The notes below the pieces were generated by a model that was not told the DNA's origin, made no database searches, and was given only the letters and a program-made list of their open reading frames with translations. DNA of 64,000 bases, taken from Novosphingobium profundi. GTDB lineage: Bacteria; Pseudomonadota; Alphaproteobacteria; Sphingomonadales; Sphingomonadaceae. Below, piece by piece: positions 18,183 to 24,486 of this stretch. The first letter of the stretch is position 1. The number at the start of each line of letters is the position of its first letter. The stretch lies in NCBI RefSeq assembly GCF_020524485.1, contig NZ_JAIVLF010000004.1:62001-126000 (forward strand), written 5' to 3'. Position numbers and translations under genes: made by a program.

Positions 18183-18427
18183 TGGCGTACCCTTGTGGCG
18201 CCCCGGCTTCGTTGCGCAGGCTTGGCTGCGACGGGGCGCCCCGCGCATAAGACCGGAACTTGCGCGATGGGAAGGGTAAGTTGGCGTTTTCAAACAGATC
18301 GCGCGTCTTGTTCACAAGCTTGCGCCGATCCTTCTCCTGACGAGATCGAAACGCGCATGCCCAATTGCGCACATGACATCTGGCTCTGTGTGCACTAGAA
18401 ATTTGCCGAAAGGGGGGAGTGTCGCAG
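18183..18427. other. Divergent intergenic region before the kinase leader peptide
   Basis: These 245 bp separate the S9 peptidase from the kinase leader peptide. A GGGGCGCCCC palindrome lies at 18233-18242. The AAGGGGGGAG at 18410-18419 is the ribosome binding site of the leader peptide. No confident promoter hexamers were found. Confidence 0.4.
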
Positions 18428-18505
18428 GTGAACAATTCGAGCCAAGTCGCGCCAGGCGTCGGCCCAGCACCCGCCCCCCTCCAAGCCCCGCGGACACCGC
18501 AATGA
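18428..18505 (+). CDS. Proline-rich 25-residue leader peptide coupled to the kinase gene
   Basis: A GTG eight bases after a strong GGGGGGAG site opens a 25-codon frame ending in TGA at 18503-18505. That stop overlaps the kinase ATG at 18502 as ATGA. The peptide has six prolines, including PAPAPLQAP and RTPQ at its end. The kinase ATG itself has no ribosome binding site, so its translation probably depends on ribosomes finishing this frame. A proline-dense peptide near a start can slow ribosomes, which offers a possible EF-P-sensitive control. It is too short for any homology test, and the evidence is positional. Confidence 0.5.
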   Translation: MNNSSQVAPGVGPAPAPLQAPRTPQ

Positions 18506-21500
18506 GCTTGTCCAGCGCCATATTTGCCTCCCTAGGCTTGGTCCTGATCCTGTTTGCCGTCGCAGCAACGGTGGAGCGCATGGCGCGCCACGGACGCCTG
18601 CAGCGCCGTTCCCGGCGCGGGGCCTACACCCTCGCGCTCGGCGTCTACTGCACCAGCTGGACGTTCTACGGATCGACCGGCACCGCGGTGCAGTCGGGCT
18701 GGGCCTTCCTTCCCATCTATGCCGGACCGATCCTGCTGCTGCTGCTCGCACCAGGCTTCCTGCACCGCCTGGGACGCGCGGTGCTGCAGGAGCGCGCGAC
18801 GACCGTCTCGGACTTCATTGCCGCGCGCTTCGGCCACGACATCGTGGTCGCCCGGCTCGTTACGCTGATCGCGCTCCTGGGGAGCATTCCTTACCTCGCC
18901 TTGCAGCTACGCTCCATCGGCAACGCGCTCTCTCTGGTCTCGGGTTCCGCGATTGCCGTTCCGGTCATGGTTGCAGCCAGCGTCCTCCTGACCCTGTTCG
19001 CTCTCCTCTTTGGCGCACGACGTTTCGAACTGGCGGGACGCAGCGAGGGACTGCTCTTTGCAATCGGGCTGGATTCCGCGTTCAAGATCGTCGCGCTAGG
19101 TGTCGTGGCCGTTCTGGCGCTCGTCCTGCTCGCAGGTGCGGAGCCGGCGCGTATTGCCAGTGGGGCCGCCCAGATGCGCGCCAATTTCGGTCCCGGCAAC
19201 ATCAGTCTCGACGTAATGACCGTTCTCCTCGTGTCGGTCTTCGCTATCGTGGCGCTGCCTCGCCAGTTCTACATGAGCTTTGTCGAGGCGCGCGCAGAGG
19301 ACGACATGCTGCGCGCCCGTCATGGGCTGGCGGCCTATCTTGCCGCCATGGCGATTCTGATCGTCCCCATCGCTCTTGCCGGTCACGCCCTGCTGCCGGA
19401 AGGGACCTCGCCCGATCTCTACGTGCTGCGGCTGCCCGATTGGGTCGGATCCGAACTGGCCCTCGCCGCCGCACTCCTTGGCGGCGTGGGAGCCGCGGCC
19501 TCGATGGCCATCGTGGATACCACAGCGCTTGCGACCATGGTCTCGAACGACCTGCTCGCACGGGCCGTCTTTGCCGCCCCCGGAGCCGAGACACGGCGTC
19601 AGTCGGCCGGGGGTATCGGGCGGCGGATGCTGGCGCTGCGACGGCTCTCTATTGCAGCCATCATGGCCCTTGCGCTGGCCTTCGCCCTTCTCGTGAACCG
19701 TGACCAGTCGCTGGCCTCGATGGGGCTTGTCGCCTTTGCCGCCATGGCACAGTTCACGCCGCACCTGATCCTTGCCACTAACGGCCGGGACCGCGATCCC
19801 GTAGCCGCACGGGCAAGCCTGGCCGTCGGCCTCGTCGTCTGGGCCTACACGCTGGCCCTGCCCCCGATCCTTCCCGCAAGCTGGACCCTGTTTCTGGAGA
19901 GCGGCCCGTTGGCGCCGGAACATCTCTTCGGCATCGCGGCGACAAGCGCCTTTGTCCACGGTGTACTCTGGAGCCTGGGTCTCAATCTAGCCGTCTATGC
20001 CCTCATCGCCGCGCGCAAGATGCCGGCGCCCGCCCTGCCCAGCCTCTTTGCCCCCTCGCACCGGGTTACGAACCTGGGCGAACTGGAGCAGTTCGTCGCT
20101 AGTTTCATCGGCGAGGAACGGGCGCTTCGCGAATTTCCCTCCGGCGAACACGGCCAACCTGTCGATCGCCGTACGGCCCATCGCGCCCAGGCCTTGATCG
20201 GCGAAGTCGTGGGGGCGGCCTCGGCCCGCACACTGGTCGCCTCGGCGCTTGCCAGTGGGCAGATGTCGATTGCCGATGTGACCCGATTGCTCGACGAAGG
20301 CGGCCAGTCGCTGCGCTTCTCGCGCCAGCTTCTGGCTGCGACGTTCGAGAACATCGATGCAGGGATCAGCGTGGTCGATGCCGAACTCAATCTCATCGCG
20401 TGGAATTCACGCTACGAGGAAATCCTGAAATACCCGGCCGGGCTGGTGCGCGCGGGCATGCCCATCGAGATCCTCATCCGCCACAACGCCGAGCGCGGCG
20501 ATTTCGGTTCGGACGACGTGGAGGCGGCCATTGCGCGGCGGCTCGACCATCTGCGTGCGCGGCAGAGCCACAGCTTCGAGCGGCGGCGTGACGATGGTCG
20601 CGTGGTCAAGACCGTGGGCGGCCCGATGCCGGGCGGAGGCTACGTCATGTCCTTCACCGACGTGACCGAGGAAGTGCGGGTACGCGATGAATTGGAACGC
20701 ACGCTCGCCGAACTTGAACACCGGGTCGAGGAGCGCACCCACGAAGTCCGCGAGGCCAACCGCCTGCTCGCCCGCGCGACACAGGACAAGACGCGCTTCC
20801 TCGCCGCCGCCAGCCACGATCTTCTCCAGCCGCTCCATGCAGCCCGTCTGTTCACCGCGGCGCTGGGGCGCAAGGCACAGGCCGAAGTGGAGCCCCTCGT
20901 CGGGCGGGTCGACAGCGCCATCGTCGCCGCCGAGGAACTCCTGCGCGCGCTGCTCGACATCTCGCGCATCGATGCAGGCGGCGTCATTCCCGACCCCGAA
21001 CCTGTCGCCCTCAAGCCCTTTCTCACCGATCTTGCCGAGAGCTTCCGGCCCAGTGCGGAGGCGAAGGGCCTGCGTCTGAAGATCGGCTCGCTCTTCGGGC
21101 AGGTCGAGACCGACCCCGGCCTGCTGCGCTCGGTCATGCAGAACTTCCTCTCCAACGCCATCCGCTATACGCAGCATGGCGGGGTCGTCCTGGGCGTGCG
21201 GACACGCGGTGACTGGCTGCGTATCGACGTCGTCGATACCGGGGTCGGCTTTCCCGAAGAGGCCGCCGAGACGATCTTTGGCGAGTTCACGCGGCTCGGC
21301 ACAGTCGAGGCCGAGGGCCTGGGGCTGGGCCTGGCCCTGGTCGAGCGGATCGTGCGTCTGCTGGGCGGGCGTATGGAGGTTTCATCCAACGAGGGGCGGG
21401 GGAGTCGTTTCAGCCTGCTTCTCCCGATGGCGGAAACCGTGGCCTCTCCCATGCCTGAAACATCCTTGCCGCGCGAGATCACGGGCCCTGTTGCACGCCT

Positions 21501-21864
21501 GGCCGTGCTGGTGGTGGACAACGATACCCGGATCGTTGAGGCGACGGTCGCCCTGGTCGAGGAACTGGGCCACCGCGCCGTAGGCGTCACGGGCGTAAAC
21601 CAGGCCCTGCCCTATGCAGGCGAGATCGACGCGGTCCTTGCCGACTATCGCCTGGACGGGGACGAAACCGGCATTGCCCTGATCGAAGCGCTGCGTGCCA
21701 TTCGCCCCACCCTGCCCGCCGCCATCCTGACGGCCGAGCCGCAAGGGCCGGTTCGAGCTGCCGCCGAAGCGCTGGGCGTCCGGGTTCTCGCCAAGCCGGT
21801 GGAACCCGGTCGTATCGAGACCTTCCTGGCCAGTGTTTCAATGGTTGAGGTGCAGGCCCAGTGA
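18502..21864 (+). CDS. crbS: Hybrid sensor histidine kinase with sodium/solute symporter domain (CrbS/MxtR-like)
   Basis: The 1120-residue protein starts with a symporter-like membrane region of roughly 12 helices (about residues 1-560; GVYCTSWTFYGSTG, TTVSDFIAARFG). Then come a PAS domain (about 610-720), a short coiled coil, a HisKA domain with the phospho-accepting His772 (FLAAASHDLLQP), an ATPase domain (NFLSNAIRY, VVDTGVGF, GLGLGLALV) and a C-terminal receiver with Asp1048 (VLADYRLDGDE). This is the architecture of CrbS/MxtR, which control acetate use. The neighbouring LuxR-type regulator and acetyl-CoA synthetase support that role. ATG 18502 matches the first helix (MSLSSAIFASLG). The 3' end overlaps the convergent regulator gene by 27 bp. 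Confidence 0.88.
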   Translation: MSLSSAIFASLGLVLILFAVAATVERMARHGRLQRRSRRGAYTLALGVYCTSWTFYGSTGTAVQSGWAFLPIYAGPILLLLLAPGFLHRLGRAVLQERATTVSDFIAARFGHDIVVARLVTLIALLGSIPYLALQLRSIGNALSLVSGSAIAVPVMVAASVLLTLFALLFGARRFELAGRSEGLLFAIGLDSAFKIVALGVVAVLALVLLAGAEPARIASGAAQMRANFGPGNISLDVMTVLLVSVFAIVALPRQFYMSFVEARAEDDMLRARHGLAAYLAAMAILIVPIALAGHALLPEGTSPDLYVLRLPDWVGSELALAAALLGGVGAAASMAIVDTTALATMVSNDLLARAVFAAPGAETRRQSAGGIGRRMLALRRLSIAAIMALALAFALLVNRDQSLASMGLVAFAAMAQFTPHLILATNGRDRDPVAARASLAVGLVVWAYTLALPPILPASWTLFLESGPLAPEHLFGIAATSAFVHGVLWSLGLNLAVYALIAARKMPAPALPSLFAPSHRVTNLGELEQFVASFIGEERALREFPSGEHGQPVDRRTAHRAQALIGEVVGAASARTLVASALASGQMSIADVTRLLDEGGQSLRFSRQLLAATFENIDAGISVVDAELNLIAWNSRYEEILKYPAGLVRAGMPIEILIRHNAERGDFGSDDVEAAIARRLDHLRARQSHSFERRRDDGRVVKTVGGPMPGGGYVMSFTDVTEEVRVRDELERTLAELEHRVEERTHEVREANRLLARATQDKTRFLAAASHDLLQPLHAARLFTAALGRKAQAEVEPLVGRVDSAIVAAEELLRALLDISRIDAGGVIPDPEPVALKPFLTDLAESFRPSAEAKGLRLKIGSLFGQVETDPGLLRSVMQNFLSNAIRYTQHGGVVLGVRTRGDWLRIDVVDTGVGFPEEAAETIFGEFTRLGTVEAEGLGLGLALVERIVRLLGGRMEVSSNEGRGSRFSLLLPMAETVASPMPETSLPREITGPVARLAVLVVDNDTRIVEATVALVEELGHRAVGVTGVNQALPYAGEIDAVLADYRLDGDETGIALIEALRAIRPTLPAAILTAEPQGPVRAAAEALGVRVLAKPVEPGRIETFLASVSMVEVQAQ

Positions 21865-22470
21865 GCGCGCAACCAGTGCAGCCTGGGTGCGGTTGCTGAC
21901 ATCGAGCTTGCGCATGATCGCGGTCATGTGCGCTTTCACGGTCGCCTCGCTGACGCCCAGGTTGTGCGCGATCTGCTTGTTGAGCTGACCGTCGAGAACG
22001 GCCAGAAGCACCTTGAGCTGGGTCGGCGTGAGCCCTGCAACGCGCTCACGGATCGGGTCGAGATCGCTGGGTTCGGCCTGTTTGCGCGGGGCCGGGGCCG
22101 CTCCTGAGAGCGCGGCTGCAATCGCGGCTTCGATCTCGGAAAGGTCGGCGTCCTTATGGAGGAAGCCCTTGGCCCCGAAGGCGCGTGCCTCTTCGGCGGC
22201 TGTCGCGCCTTCCGCGCTCGACACGACCAGAATCGGGACATCGGGCCGCTCGGCATGGAGCAGCGCGATCCCTGAGAAGCCGACAGCGCCAGGCATCTTG
22301 AGGTCCAGCAGGATCAGGGAGAGATCGGGGTGAGCCGCAACAGCACTCGAGGCGGCCACCAGGGTGCCCGCCTCGACGATCTGCGCATCAGGAGCGACCT
22401 GCCCTACCGCGAGGGCAAGGGCCTGGCGGAAAAGCGGGTGATCATCGGCAATAAGGATGCTGCGAGTCAT
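21838..22470 (-). CDS. crbR: LuxR/NarL-type response regulator (CrbR/ErdR-like)
   Basis: This 210-residue regulator has a receiver domain (acidic pair DD in ILIADDHPLFRQ, phospho-acceptor Asp56 in LILLDLKMPG, conserved Lys in FLHKDA) and a C-terminal LuxR helix-turn-helix (LTPTQLKVLLAVLDGQLNKQ ... ATVKAHMTAIMRKL). It lies 66 bp downstream of the acetyl-CoA synthetase gene in the same direction, so the two are probably co-transcribed. It converges with, and overlaps by 27 bp, the symporter-kinase gene. In Vibrio and Pseudomonas, CrbR/ErdR activates acs. If it does so here, it would sit in a positive feedback loop with its own target. Confidence 0.88.
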   Translation of the reverse strand: MTRSILIADDHPLFRQALALAVGQVAPDAQIVEAGTLVAASSAVAAHPDLSLILLDLKMPGAVGFSGIALLHAERPDVPILVVSSAEGATAAEEARAFGAKGFLHKDADLSEIEAAIAAALSGAAPAPRKQAEPSDLDPIRERVAGLTPTQLKVLLAVLDGQLNKQIAHNLGVSEATVKAHMTAIMRKLDVSNRTQAALVARSLGLHLNH

Positions 22471-22536: not shown

Positions 22537-24486
22537 TCAGGCTGTGGCTGGCTGCGGGCGGTTCTCGATCAGGTTGTCGACCACCGAAGGATCGGCCAGC
22601 GTCGAGGTGTCGCCCAGGCTCGAGACATCGTTCTCGCCTATCTTGCGCAGAATGCGGCGCATGATCTTGCCCGAACGGGTCTTGGGGAGCCCCGGAGCGA
22701 ACTGGATCACATCGGGCGTCGCGATGGGGCCGATCTCGTGGCGCACCCACTTGATGAGTTCGCGGCGCAGGTCCTCGTCCGCTTCGACCCCGCTGTTCGT
22801 GGTCACGAAGGCATAGATGCCCTGCCCCTTGATCTCGTGCGGCATGCCCACGACCGCAGCTTCGGCGACCTTGTGGTGCGCCACCAGCGCGGACTCGATC
22901 TCGGCTGTACCCATACGGTGGCCCGAGACGTTGATGACGTCATCGATGCGGCCCGTGATCCAGTAGTAGCCGTCCTCGTCGCGGCGGCAGCCGTCGCCGG
23001 TGAAATAGAAGCCCTTGAACGTGCTGAAATAGGTCTGGAAGAAGCGCTCATGATCGCCCCACACGGTGCGCATCTGGCCCGGCCAGCTGTCGGCGACGAC
23101 AAGGCAACCCTCGCCCGCGCCGGTCATCTCCTTGCCGTCGTTGTCGAGCAGCAAGGGGCGCACACCAAACATGGGCTTGGAGGCCGAGCCCGGCTTGAGG
23201 TCGGTCGCGCCGGGAAGCGGGGTGATCATCACGCCGCCCGTCTCGGTCTGCCACCAGGTGTCGACGATGGGACAACGCCCTTCACCCACGACGTTGTAGT
23301 ACCAGGACCAGGCCTCGGGGTTGATCGGTTCGCCCACCGAACCCAGCACCTTGAGGCTCTTGCGGCTGGTGGCCTTCACGTACTCGTCGCCCTCGCGCAT
23401 CAGCGCGCGCAGAGCAGTCGGGGCTCCGTAGAAGATTTCGACCTCGTACTTGTCGACGATCTGCCAGAAGCGGCTTGCGTCCGGGAAGCTGGGCACGCCC
23501 TCGAACATCACCGTGGTCGCGCCGTTCATCAGCGGACCGTAGACGACGTAAGAGTGGCCCGTGACCCACCCGATATCGGCCGCGCACCAGTAGATCTGGC
23601 CGGGCCGGTAGTCGAAGACGTACTCGTGTGTCATCGAGGCCCAGACCGAATAGCCACCGGTGGTGTGGAGCACGCCCTTGGGCTTGCCGGTCGAACCCGA
23701 GGTGTAGAGGATGAAGAGCGGGTCTTCCGCGTTCATTTCCTCCGGTGTGCAGTCGACCGACTGCTCGGCAACGCTCGTTGCCCAATCGATGTCGCGGCCT
23801 TCGACCATGGGCACGTCCGCACCGGTATGGGCAAGCACGATGACAGTCTCGACGCCGGGGCAGTCCTCCAGCGCCTCGTCGACATTGGCCTTGAGCGCCA
23901 CGCGCTTGCCGCCGCGCAGGCCCTGGTCGGCGGTGAGGACAATGGAGCTGTCGCAATCGATGATGCGCCCCGCAAGGGCGTCGGGCGAAAAGCCAGCAAA
24001 GACGATGGAGTGGATCGCACCGATGCGCGCGCAGGCCAGCATCGCGACGGCCGCTTCGGGCACCATCGGCAGGTAGATCGTGACGCGATCCCCCTTCTTC
24101 ACGCCGCGCGCCTTCAAAAGGTTGGCAAAGCGGCACACGTCTTCGTGCAACTGGCGGTAGGTGATGCGGCGTTCCGGGTCGCTGGGATCGTCGGGCTCCC
24201 ACAGGATCGCGATCTGGTCGCCGCGTTCGGCAAGATGCCGGTCCAGTGCATTGGCCGAGAGGTTGAGCGTGCCGTCGGGGAACCAGGAGATGCCGAAATC
24301 GGCCTCGTGGAAGCTCGTCTGCTTGACCACGCTGAAGGGCTTGATCCAGTCGATCCGCTGCGCCTCGTCGCGCCAGAAACCTTCCGGATCGTCGAGAGAG
24401 CGCTGGTACTTTTCCATGTAGGTATCTTGGTTGATGAGCGCATTCTTTGCCCAGTCCTCAGGGACGGGATAAAGGGCCTCGACCAT
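22537..24486 (-). CDS. acs: Acetyl-CoA synthetase (AMP-forming)
   Basis: The 649-residue enzyme converts acetate, ATP and CoA to acetyl-CoA, AMP and pyrophosphate. It has the normal length, the phosphate-binding loop [12 protein letters not shown], the [10 protein letters not shown] motif that shapes the acetyl pocket, and the C-terminal [13 protein letters not shown] with the catalytic Lys607, the residue acetylated by Pat-type enzymes. It shares a 210-bp divergent region with the porin gene at 24697. The response regulator gene follows in the same direction. A Pat-like acetyltransferase gene lies 3.5 kb away, so both transcriptional and acetylation control are plausible. Confidence 0.97.

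Follow-up and report, generated by a model that had tools for sequence, protein, structure and literature searches.

A short frame ending on the start of a CrbS-like kinase gene is most likely a translationally coupled leader in one Novosphingobium clade

Introduction

Does a 25-codon reading frame that ends on the start codon of a sensor kinase gene serve that gene and, if so, through its translation or through its peptide? The question arises in a 64,000-nucleotide stretch of Novosphingobium profundi DNA (hereafter the window). A previous, sequence-only reading had proposed that this frame encodes a proline-rich leader peptide coupled to the kinase, and that ribosome pausing on it could tune kinase output with translation capacity or EF-P activity. 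We compared the locus with its orthologues across the genus, and with shuffled sequences.

Results

The kinase and its neighbours

The kinase gene (18502..21864, + strand) encodes a CrbS-like hybrid histidine kinase with an SLC5-type membrane part and PAS, HisKA, HATPase and receiver domains. Domain matches were obtained for PAS_7, HisKA, HATPase_c and Response_reg; the membrane part was not recognised by Pfam. Residues 2–456 align with residues 6–450 of CbrA in Protein Data Bank (PDB) entry 10ED (10ed_A, E = 1.3e-48), the nearest solved relative of this membrane part. Two genes on the minus strand follow, one for a LuxR-type response regulator resembling ErdR/CrbR (21838..22470; NF041830 ErdR, 190.4 bits, under the cut-off of 390) and one for an acetate–CoA ligase, acs (22537..24486; TIGR02188, 1015.8 bits, cut-off 724.95). 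Scores for both the ErdR and NahK models lay under their cut-offs. The combination of an SLC5-type part, PAS, histidine kinase and receiver close to acs and a LuxR-type regulator is the CrbS/CrbR architecture. As read from sequence, the three genes are a CrbS/CrbR/acs set, and the putative label of 'acetate-sensing' kinase is reasonable in this context.

The leader frame and the kinase start

The leader frame (18428..18505, + strand) starts with GTG at 18428, runs for 25 codons and stops at TGA (18503–18505); its peptide is MNNSSQVAPGVGPAPAPLQAPRTPQ. The Shine–Dalgarno (SD) sequence of the leader, AAGGGGGGAG (18410..18419, + strand), is separated from the GTG by 8 bases. The TGA and the kinase ATG (18502–18504) share a 4-base ATGA overlap (18502..18505, + strand). 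The leader has an anti-SD duplex energy of −10.3. The kinase value, −3.2, does not change when 28 upstream bases are allowed. In G133 and G167, the two other genomes of this sub-lineage, the leader SD reaches −10.8 and −8.6, respectively. The strong ribosome binding site, the 25 codons and the end on the kinase ATGA thus lie where the sequence-only reading had placed them, and its claim that the kinase start has no site of its own is borne out. A stop that overlaps the downstream start, and a strong leader SD beside a weak or missing downstream one, are the marks of a translationally coupled short leader ORF; both are found here.

A candidate promoter upstream (18373..18400, + strand) was picked out by eye, with ATGACA at 18373–18378, a spacer of 16 bases and CTAGAA at 18395–18400. 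The call leans on what we take to be the alphaproteobacterial −10 type, and a similar stretch is present in G133 and G167. This putative promoter would imply a transcript start near 18406–18408. A strict sigma-70 scan of the window locus found no promoter, and no terminator-like site was found between 18190 and 18620. Two other candidates were rejected: a leader–kinase fusion by frameshifting, for which no slippery site was seen by eye, and an RNA family match to mir-485, which at 19.4 bits against a cut-off of 70 is a chance match.

How often chance gives the layout

The 4-base overlap alone is cheap: wherever a gene begins with ATGA, each same-phase frame must end there. As the overlap is automatic, the informative part is a well-spaced strong SD, an open frame up to that stop and a poor kinase site. 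We shuffled the 110 upstream bases and counted frames of 8–60 codons with an SD of −8.5 or stronger. Such a frame appeared in 1.3% of shuffles of the window's upstream region, and in 0.9% when the kinase site had to be weak as well; under the latter rule, the range over eleven sequences was 0.3–4.6%. Across 464 kb of the same genome, the layout was present at 4 of 269 coding-like ORFs (at least 150 amino acids, any candidate start in the first 60 codons), the window's kinase included. The three other genes at which a strong-SD frame ends on a weak-SD start are L196:3164(+), L196:1033(-) and L203:359(+), with frames of 17, 22 and 12 codons.

Distribution among orthologues

Judged by its first 200 residues, the kinase is present in 86 of 195 Novosphingobium genomes. 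The upstream regions of all 86 orthologues were scanned for frames ending on the kinase start; where contigs end close upstream (69 bases in G114, 122 in G111), longer frames may be missed. A frame of 8–60 codons with an SD of −8.5 or stronger ends on the kinase start in 11 orthologues. Ten of these, all from one clade, share a narrower form, with 21–25 codons, an SD of −8.6 or stronger and an end exactly on the kinase start. They represent four sub-lineages: G000 (the window's sequence), G133 and G167; G159; G108, G105 and G097; and G166, G005 and G048. The start codon is GTG in eight of the leaders and TTG in the other two, and the overlap, which the scan itself sought, reads ATGA in all but one, where it is GTGA. 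The kinase SD is weaker than −4 in nine of the ten, the exception being G133 (−5.8). The eleventh orthologue, G182, lies outside the clade and has a 15-codon TTG frame with an SD of −9.3, but also a strong kinase SD of −11.5.

In a kinase tree of 40 rows, nine of the ten leader bearers form a clade with G002 and G150 (support 100/99); the window row was too short for this tree, and G133 and G167 stand in for it. The strict form is missing from G002 and G150. In G002 the frame has 10 codons and an SD of −6.2, and the kinase SD is −6.4; in G150 the frame has 24 codons and an SD of −6.5, and the kinase SD is −8.6. Both are among the 12 of 86 orthologues with weaker same-phase frames (SD −5.0 to −6.5). 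The simplest reading of this pattern would be one gain and two partial losses, in G002 and G150. Within 80 bases 5′ of its kinase, G002 (L074) also carries two staggered frames that might form a relay: one of 9 codons, with a GTG start, an SD of −7.8 and a stop beginning 21 bases 5′ of the kinase, and the 10-codon ATG frame that ends on ATGA.

Beyond the clade, the layout appears no more often than in shuffled sequence. Under relaxed rules, one of 72 Novosphingobium orthologues had it, where shuffled sequences gave 2.9 on average (2 of the 74 non-clade orthologues were dropped for short upstream sequence). A strict scan of 80 named loci returned only L100, from Novosphingobium sp. BW1, which has the coordinates and leader of G167 and was taken as the same genome. 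Relaxing the rules brought the named loci with the layout to 2 of 78, one of them the clade member BW1, against a shuffled mean of 2.1 (2 of the 80 were dropped for short upstream sequence or because no start was found). Of the 74 non-clade orthologues, 18 combine a kinase SD weaker than −4 with the absence of such a leader, and 9 of these 18 have no kinase SD within 28 bases; a missing kinase SD therefore does not demand a leader. SD-free initiation in the genus is possible, and some kinase starts may be misassigned.

Retention of the layout through upstream turnover

We compared the anchored identity over the last 66 bases before the kinase with that expected from composition. The window's sequence matched G159 at 16 of 66 positions (expected 18.5), G105 at 23 of 66 (expected 18.6) and G005 at 14 of 66 (expected 17.5). 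Across the four sub-lineages, upstream DNA similarity is mostly at chance level, and the layout persists. Only one cross-sub-lineage pair, G133 and G159, has a local match stronger than in any of 300 shuffles, confined to the SD and the GTG AAC start; for G005 with G002 the match is borderline (p 0.03). A one-base indel separates G105 from G097 and falls exactly at the start codon, changing TTG to GTG with the frame intact. The kinase frame is likewise open over the leader stretch in G000, G133, G167, G166, G005, G048 and G150, so openness of the leader frame alone says little.

Because base composition nearly accounts for the upstream identity between sub-lineages, selection would be needed to retain the layout. 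Presence in at least four of six lineages by chance has P ~1e-5 at 3% per lineage, assuming an independence that is only approximately true. Persistence despite turnover, together with the chance frequency outside the clade, argues that the leader is most likely selected, clade-specific and translationally coupled. The coupling proposed by the sequence-only reading thus gains support from comparison. Conservation of the frame, which that reading had set as a test, holds for the layout within the clade but not for the sequence, and the frame is absent beyond the clade.

The leader peptide

The description 'proline-rich' is true of the window's leader, with 6 prolines in 25 residues, but uninformative, as the C-rich composition of the stretch accounts for them: shuffles of the same bases contain 5.2 prolines on average, and 41.5% contain at least six. 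Prolines number 6 in G000, 5 in G167, 3 each in G133 and G159, 1 each in G005 and G166, and 0 in G108, G105, G097 and G048, which leaves four of the ten leaders without any. No PP pair occurs in the ten leaders or in G150.

Leader peptides are unrelated between sub-lineages and have no common stretch beyond the first residues. Within the window's own sub-lineage, a third of the leader bases differ between G133 and the window, while the first 200 codons of the kinase are 92% identical in DNA; pN/pS for this pair is 0.29/0.51 in the leader and 0.014/0.24 in the kinase. The leader of G167 is 95% identical to that of the window (pN/pS 0.04/0.10), and leader values are 0.18/0.23 for G108–G105 and 0.11/0.18 for G005–G048. 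In all four pairs examined, pN is under pS in the leader frame, which is mostly not so in the other two frames. As 13 of the 25 leader changes between the window and G133 also fall at third positions, slight constraint on the peptide is possible. Overall, little constraint on the peptide is visible, and it is probably a by-product. The highest 15-residue hydropathy value of each leader ranges from −1.16 to 0.97, which predicts no membrane helix.

RNA structure upstream of the kinase

No common RNA fold was found among the 12 clade members, for which folding z-scores range from −0.68 to 1.56. In G048 (L082), G005 (L079) and G166 (L078), a long helix is predicted between the leader SD and the bases before the kinase ATG. 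G005 and G048 differ on both sides of some of its pairs, as judged by eye, and a switch is possible there.

A separate hairpin, conserved 136–286 bases 5′ of the kinase start, was detected in 13 of the 86 orthologues with the pattern used. Its stem, GCCCGGCGCGG/CCGCGCCGGG, encloses TTGGGAGAGGATGCGA, and paired changes occur in G011 (GCACGG/CCGTGC). The hairpin loci are L033:694, L040:654, L041:335(-), L043:296(-), L047:707, L048:301(-), L049:282(-), L050:271(-), L051:310(-), L053:716, L057:648, L059:371 and L180:326(-); in the seven loci examined, no Rfam match was found at the element. It also occurs in G018 and G020 on contigs without a kinase match, the G020 copy lying just downstream of acs.

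Alternative explanations

Two alternatives give the peptide itself a role. The leader could be a regulatory stalling sequence, in which pausing on prolines (through EF-P) or on another sensed residue tunes kinase output, and the six prolines of the window's leader and the low pN relative to pS in the leader frame are what such a reading would build on. EF-P relieves stalling at consecutive prolines, according to the accessible parts of PMC5811046 and PMC4176338, and runs of at least two consecutive conserved prolines are absent from the ten leaders and from G150. With prolines varying from 0 to 6, no PP pair and numbers that base composition predicts, the tuning suggested by the sequence-only reading finds no support. 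Amino acid changes between the window and G133 have also accumulated in the leader (pN/pS 0.29/0.51) far beyond those in the kinase (0.014/0.24), and peptides from different sub-lineages have nothing in common past their first residues. We consider stalling very improbable. The same grade applies to the leader peptide as a small subunit of the kinase. Such a role has a precedent in CbrX, which is bound to the SLC5 domain of CbrA in PDB 10ED, as described in the accessible part of PMC13022988, but CbrX-family proteins have about 58 amino acids and two membrane helices. The leaders, of 21–25 amino acids, reach a hydropathy of at most 0.97, too low for a membrane helix, and their sequences are unrelated between sub-lineages.

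The remaining alternatives concern the kinase start and its surroundings. The kinase could instead begin upstream in its own frame, which in the window runs open from a stop at 18277 and contains TTG (18403), GTG (18388) and ATG (18373) codons in phase. These starts sit in or near the putative promoter, however, and stops interrupt the kinase frame between the leader's start codon and the kinase's own in G159, G108, G097, G105 and G002. Most of the full-length orthologues listed align from residues 1–9, and 10ED aligns from residue 2. These alignments, and the upstream stops in G002 and four of the ten leader bearers, make 18502 the likely start and an upstream one hardly credible. A less improbable but still unlikely explanation is that coupling acts chiefly through unfolding, with RNA structure hiding the kinase start until translation of the leader melts it. 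When leader and kinase start are folded together, the start is predicted to be largely paired (mean unpaired 0.13 in G133, 0.08 in G005 and G166, 0.19 in G048), and in G005 and G048 a predicted helix joins the leader SD to bases just 5′ of the kinase ATG. Over equal stretches of 100 bases, the mean unpaired value is 0.32 in the ten leader bearers against 0.39 outside the clade (s.d. 0.12, n = 74). The cost of opening the kinase site, in contrast, hardly differs (10.5 in the ten against 10.1 outside; s.d. 3.8, n = 73), no structure is common to the clade, and the kinase starts of G000 (0.45) and G159 (0.51) are open. By these fold predictions, unfolding may contribute in G133 and in G005, G166 and G048. 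Slightly less likely again, in our view, is a chance frame, with the kinase starting unaided (leaderless or SD-independent) and the leader without a role. The overlap is automatic for genes that start with ATGA, such frames appear in 0.4–8.1% of shuffled upstream regions, 3 of 268 other ORFs of the same genome have the layout, and 9 of 74 non-clade orthologues manage with neither a kinase SD within 28 bases nor a leader. Against chance stands the retention of the layout in ten clade members from four sub-lineages, although their upstream DNA is otherwise near saturation.

Discussion

Our comparisons indicate that the leader is real and most likely selected and functional as a coupled leader. 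We give a probability of roughly three in four to the reading that it is a ribosome-delivery frame, on which ribosomes would load, translate, terminate and reinitiate, so that kinase output would be set by initiation on the leader. We infer that both frames lie on one transcript and that ribosomes translate the leader, on which translation of the kinase would depend. Ribosomes would bind the strong SD at 18410–18419 and initiate at GTG 18428, translate the 25 leader codons and terminate at TGA 18503. The terminating ribosomes would stay on the message and reinitiate at the ATG that overlaps the stop; initiation on the leader would then set kinase output, and the act of translation would count where the peptide does not. 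The general lack of a kinase SD and the −4 overlap fit termination and reinitiation. In the accessible part of a review that describes both coupling models (PMC12548453), −4 to +3 is the best spacing in most studies, which puts a −4 overlap within the most efficient range.

The locus would be a natural case in which a layout (SD, start, length class and −4 overlap) seems to be selected and the peptide is largely free, and the claim that translation rather than peptide matters can be tested by comparing living variants. With this kinase, the transporter-kinase family would also have a second member that seems to need an upstream mini-ORF for its synthesis. A more speculative idea, which we hold to be improbable, is that SLC5/STAC sensor kinases repeatedly come under coupled leader ORFs, with a sequence-free loader, conserved in architecture alone, in Novosphingobium and, in Pseudomonas, an ORF that became the kinase-bound membrane micropeptide CbrX; if true, coupled leaders would be a nursery of new small subunits. 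A caution also follows for similar loci, in that the proline content of leaders in C-rich DNA is a poor guide to pausing.

Attenuation and arrest leader peptides, such as trpL and the polyproline stallers, are likewise encoded by short ORFs in 5′ leaders. The frame described here differs from them: neither its peptide nor any stall motif is conserved, and the stretch from 18190 to 18620 contains no terminator-like site. It is closer to the short ORFs whose sole proposed role is to deliver ribosomes to a coupled gene, which are named in the accessible part of PMC12548453, and to bicistronic expression designs, with which it shares a short first ORF and a close stop/start spacing. That part of the review takes its natural examples from mycobacteria, while here the layout can be seen to persist through sequence turnover across a clade. 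The short ORFs in 5′ untranslated regions that the accessible text of PMC10117765 reports from Sinorhizobium meliloti do not concern this kinase. Judged by title, no relevant literature was found on leader peptides in Novosphingobium, and a search for coupled leaders of histidine kinases gave only the cbrX paper as relevant. In the searched text of the CrbS paper PMC5715377, the terms used returned no mention of a leader.

The closest precedent is cbrX–cbrA of Pseudomonas putida, which serves a related transporter-kinase, so the kind is already known. The accessible part of PMC6591292 describes cbrX as 58 codons long with a 17-base overlap with cbrA, which has no recognisable SD. Mutation of the cbrX start lowered CbrA to about the empty-vector level, and a frame-restored, different CbrX peptide gave almost wild-type function; low CbrA levels were still sufficient for crcZ activation. 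CbrX is bound to the transporter domain of CbrA and dispensable for growth on histidine, according to the accessible part of a 2026 preprint (PMC13022988). In both loci, a short ORF precedes and overlaps the gene for an SLC5-type histidine kinase, and the kinase start is without a recognisable SD. That normal kinase levels need upstream translation rather than a given upstream sequence was shown by mutation in Pseudomonas and would hold here by analogy. CbrX is a kinase-binding protein of 58 amino acids with two membrane helices, conserved across Pseudomonas and Azotobacter and encoded with a 17-base overlap, whereas the leaders here have 21–25 amino acids, a 4-base overlap, no helix and no conserved sequence. 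By this analogy, the Novosphingobium leader may act as cbrX does on cbrA in translation while its peptide is not a CbrX, a likeness for which we claim no common ancestry.
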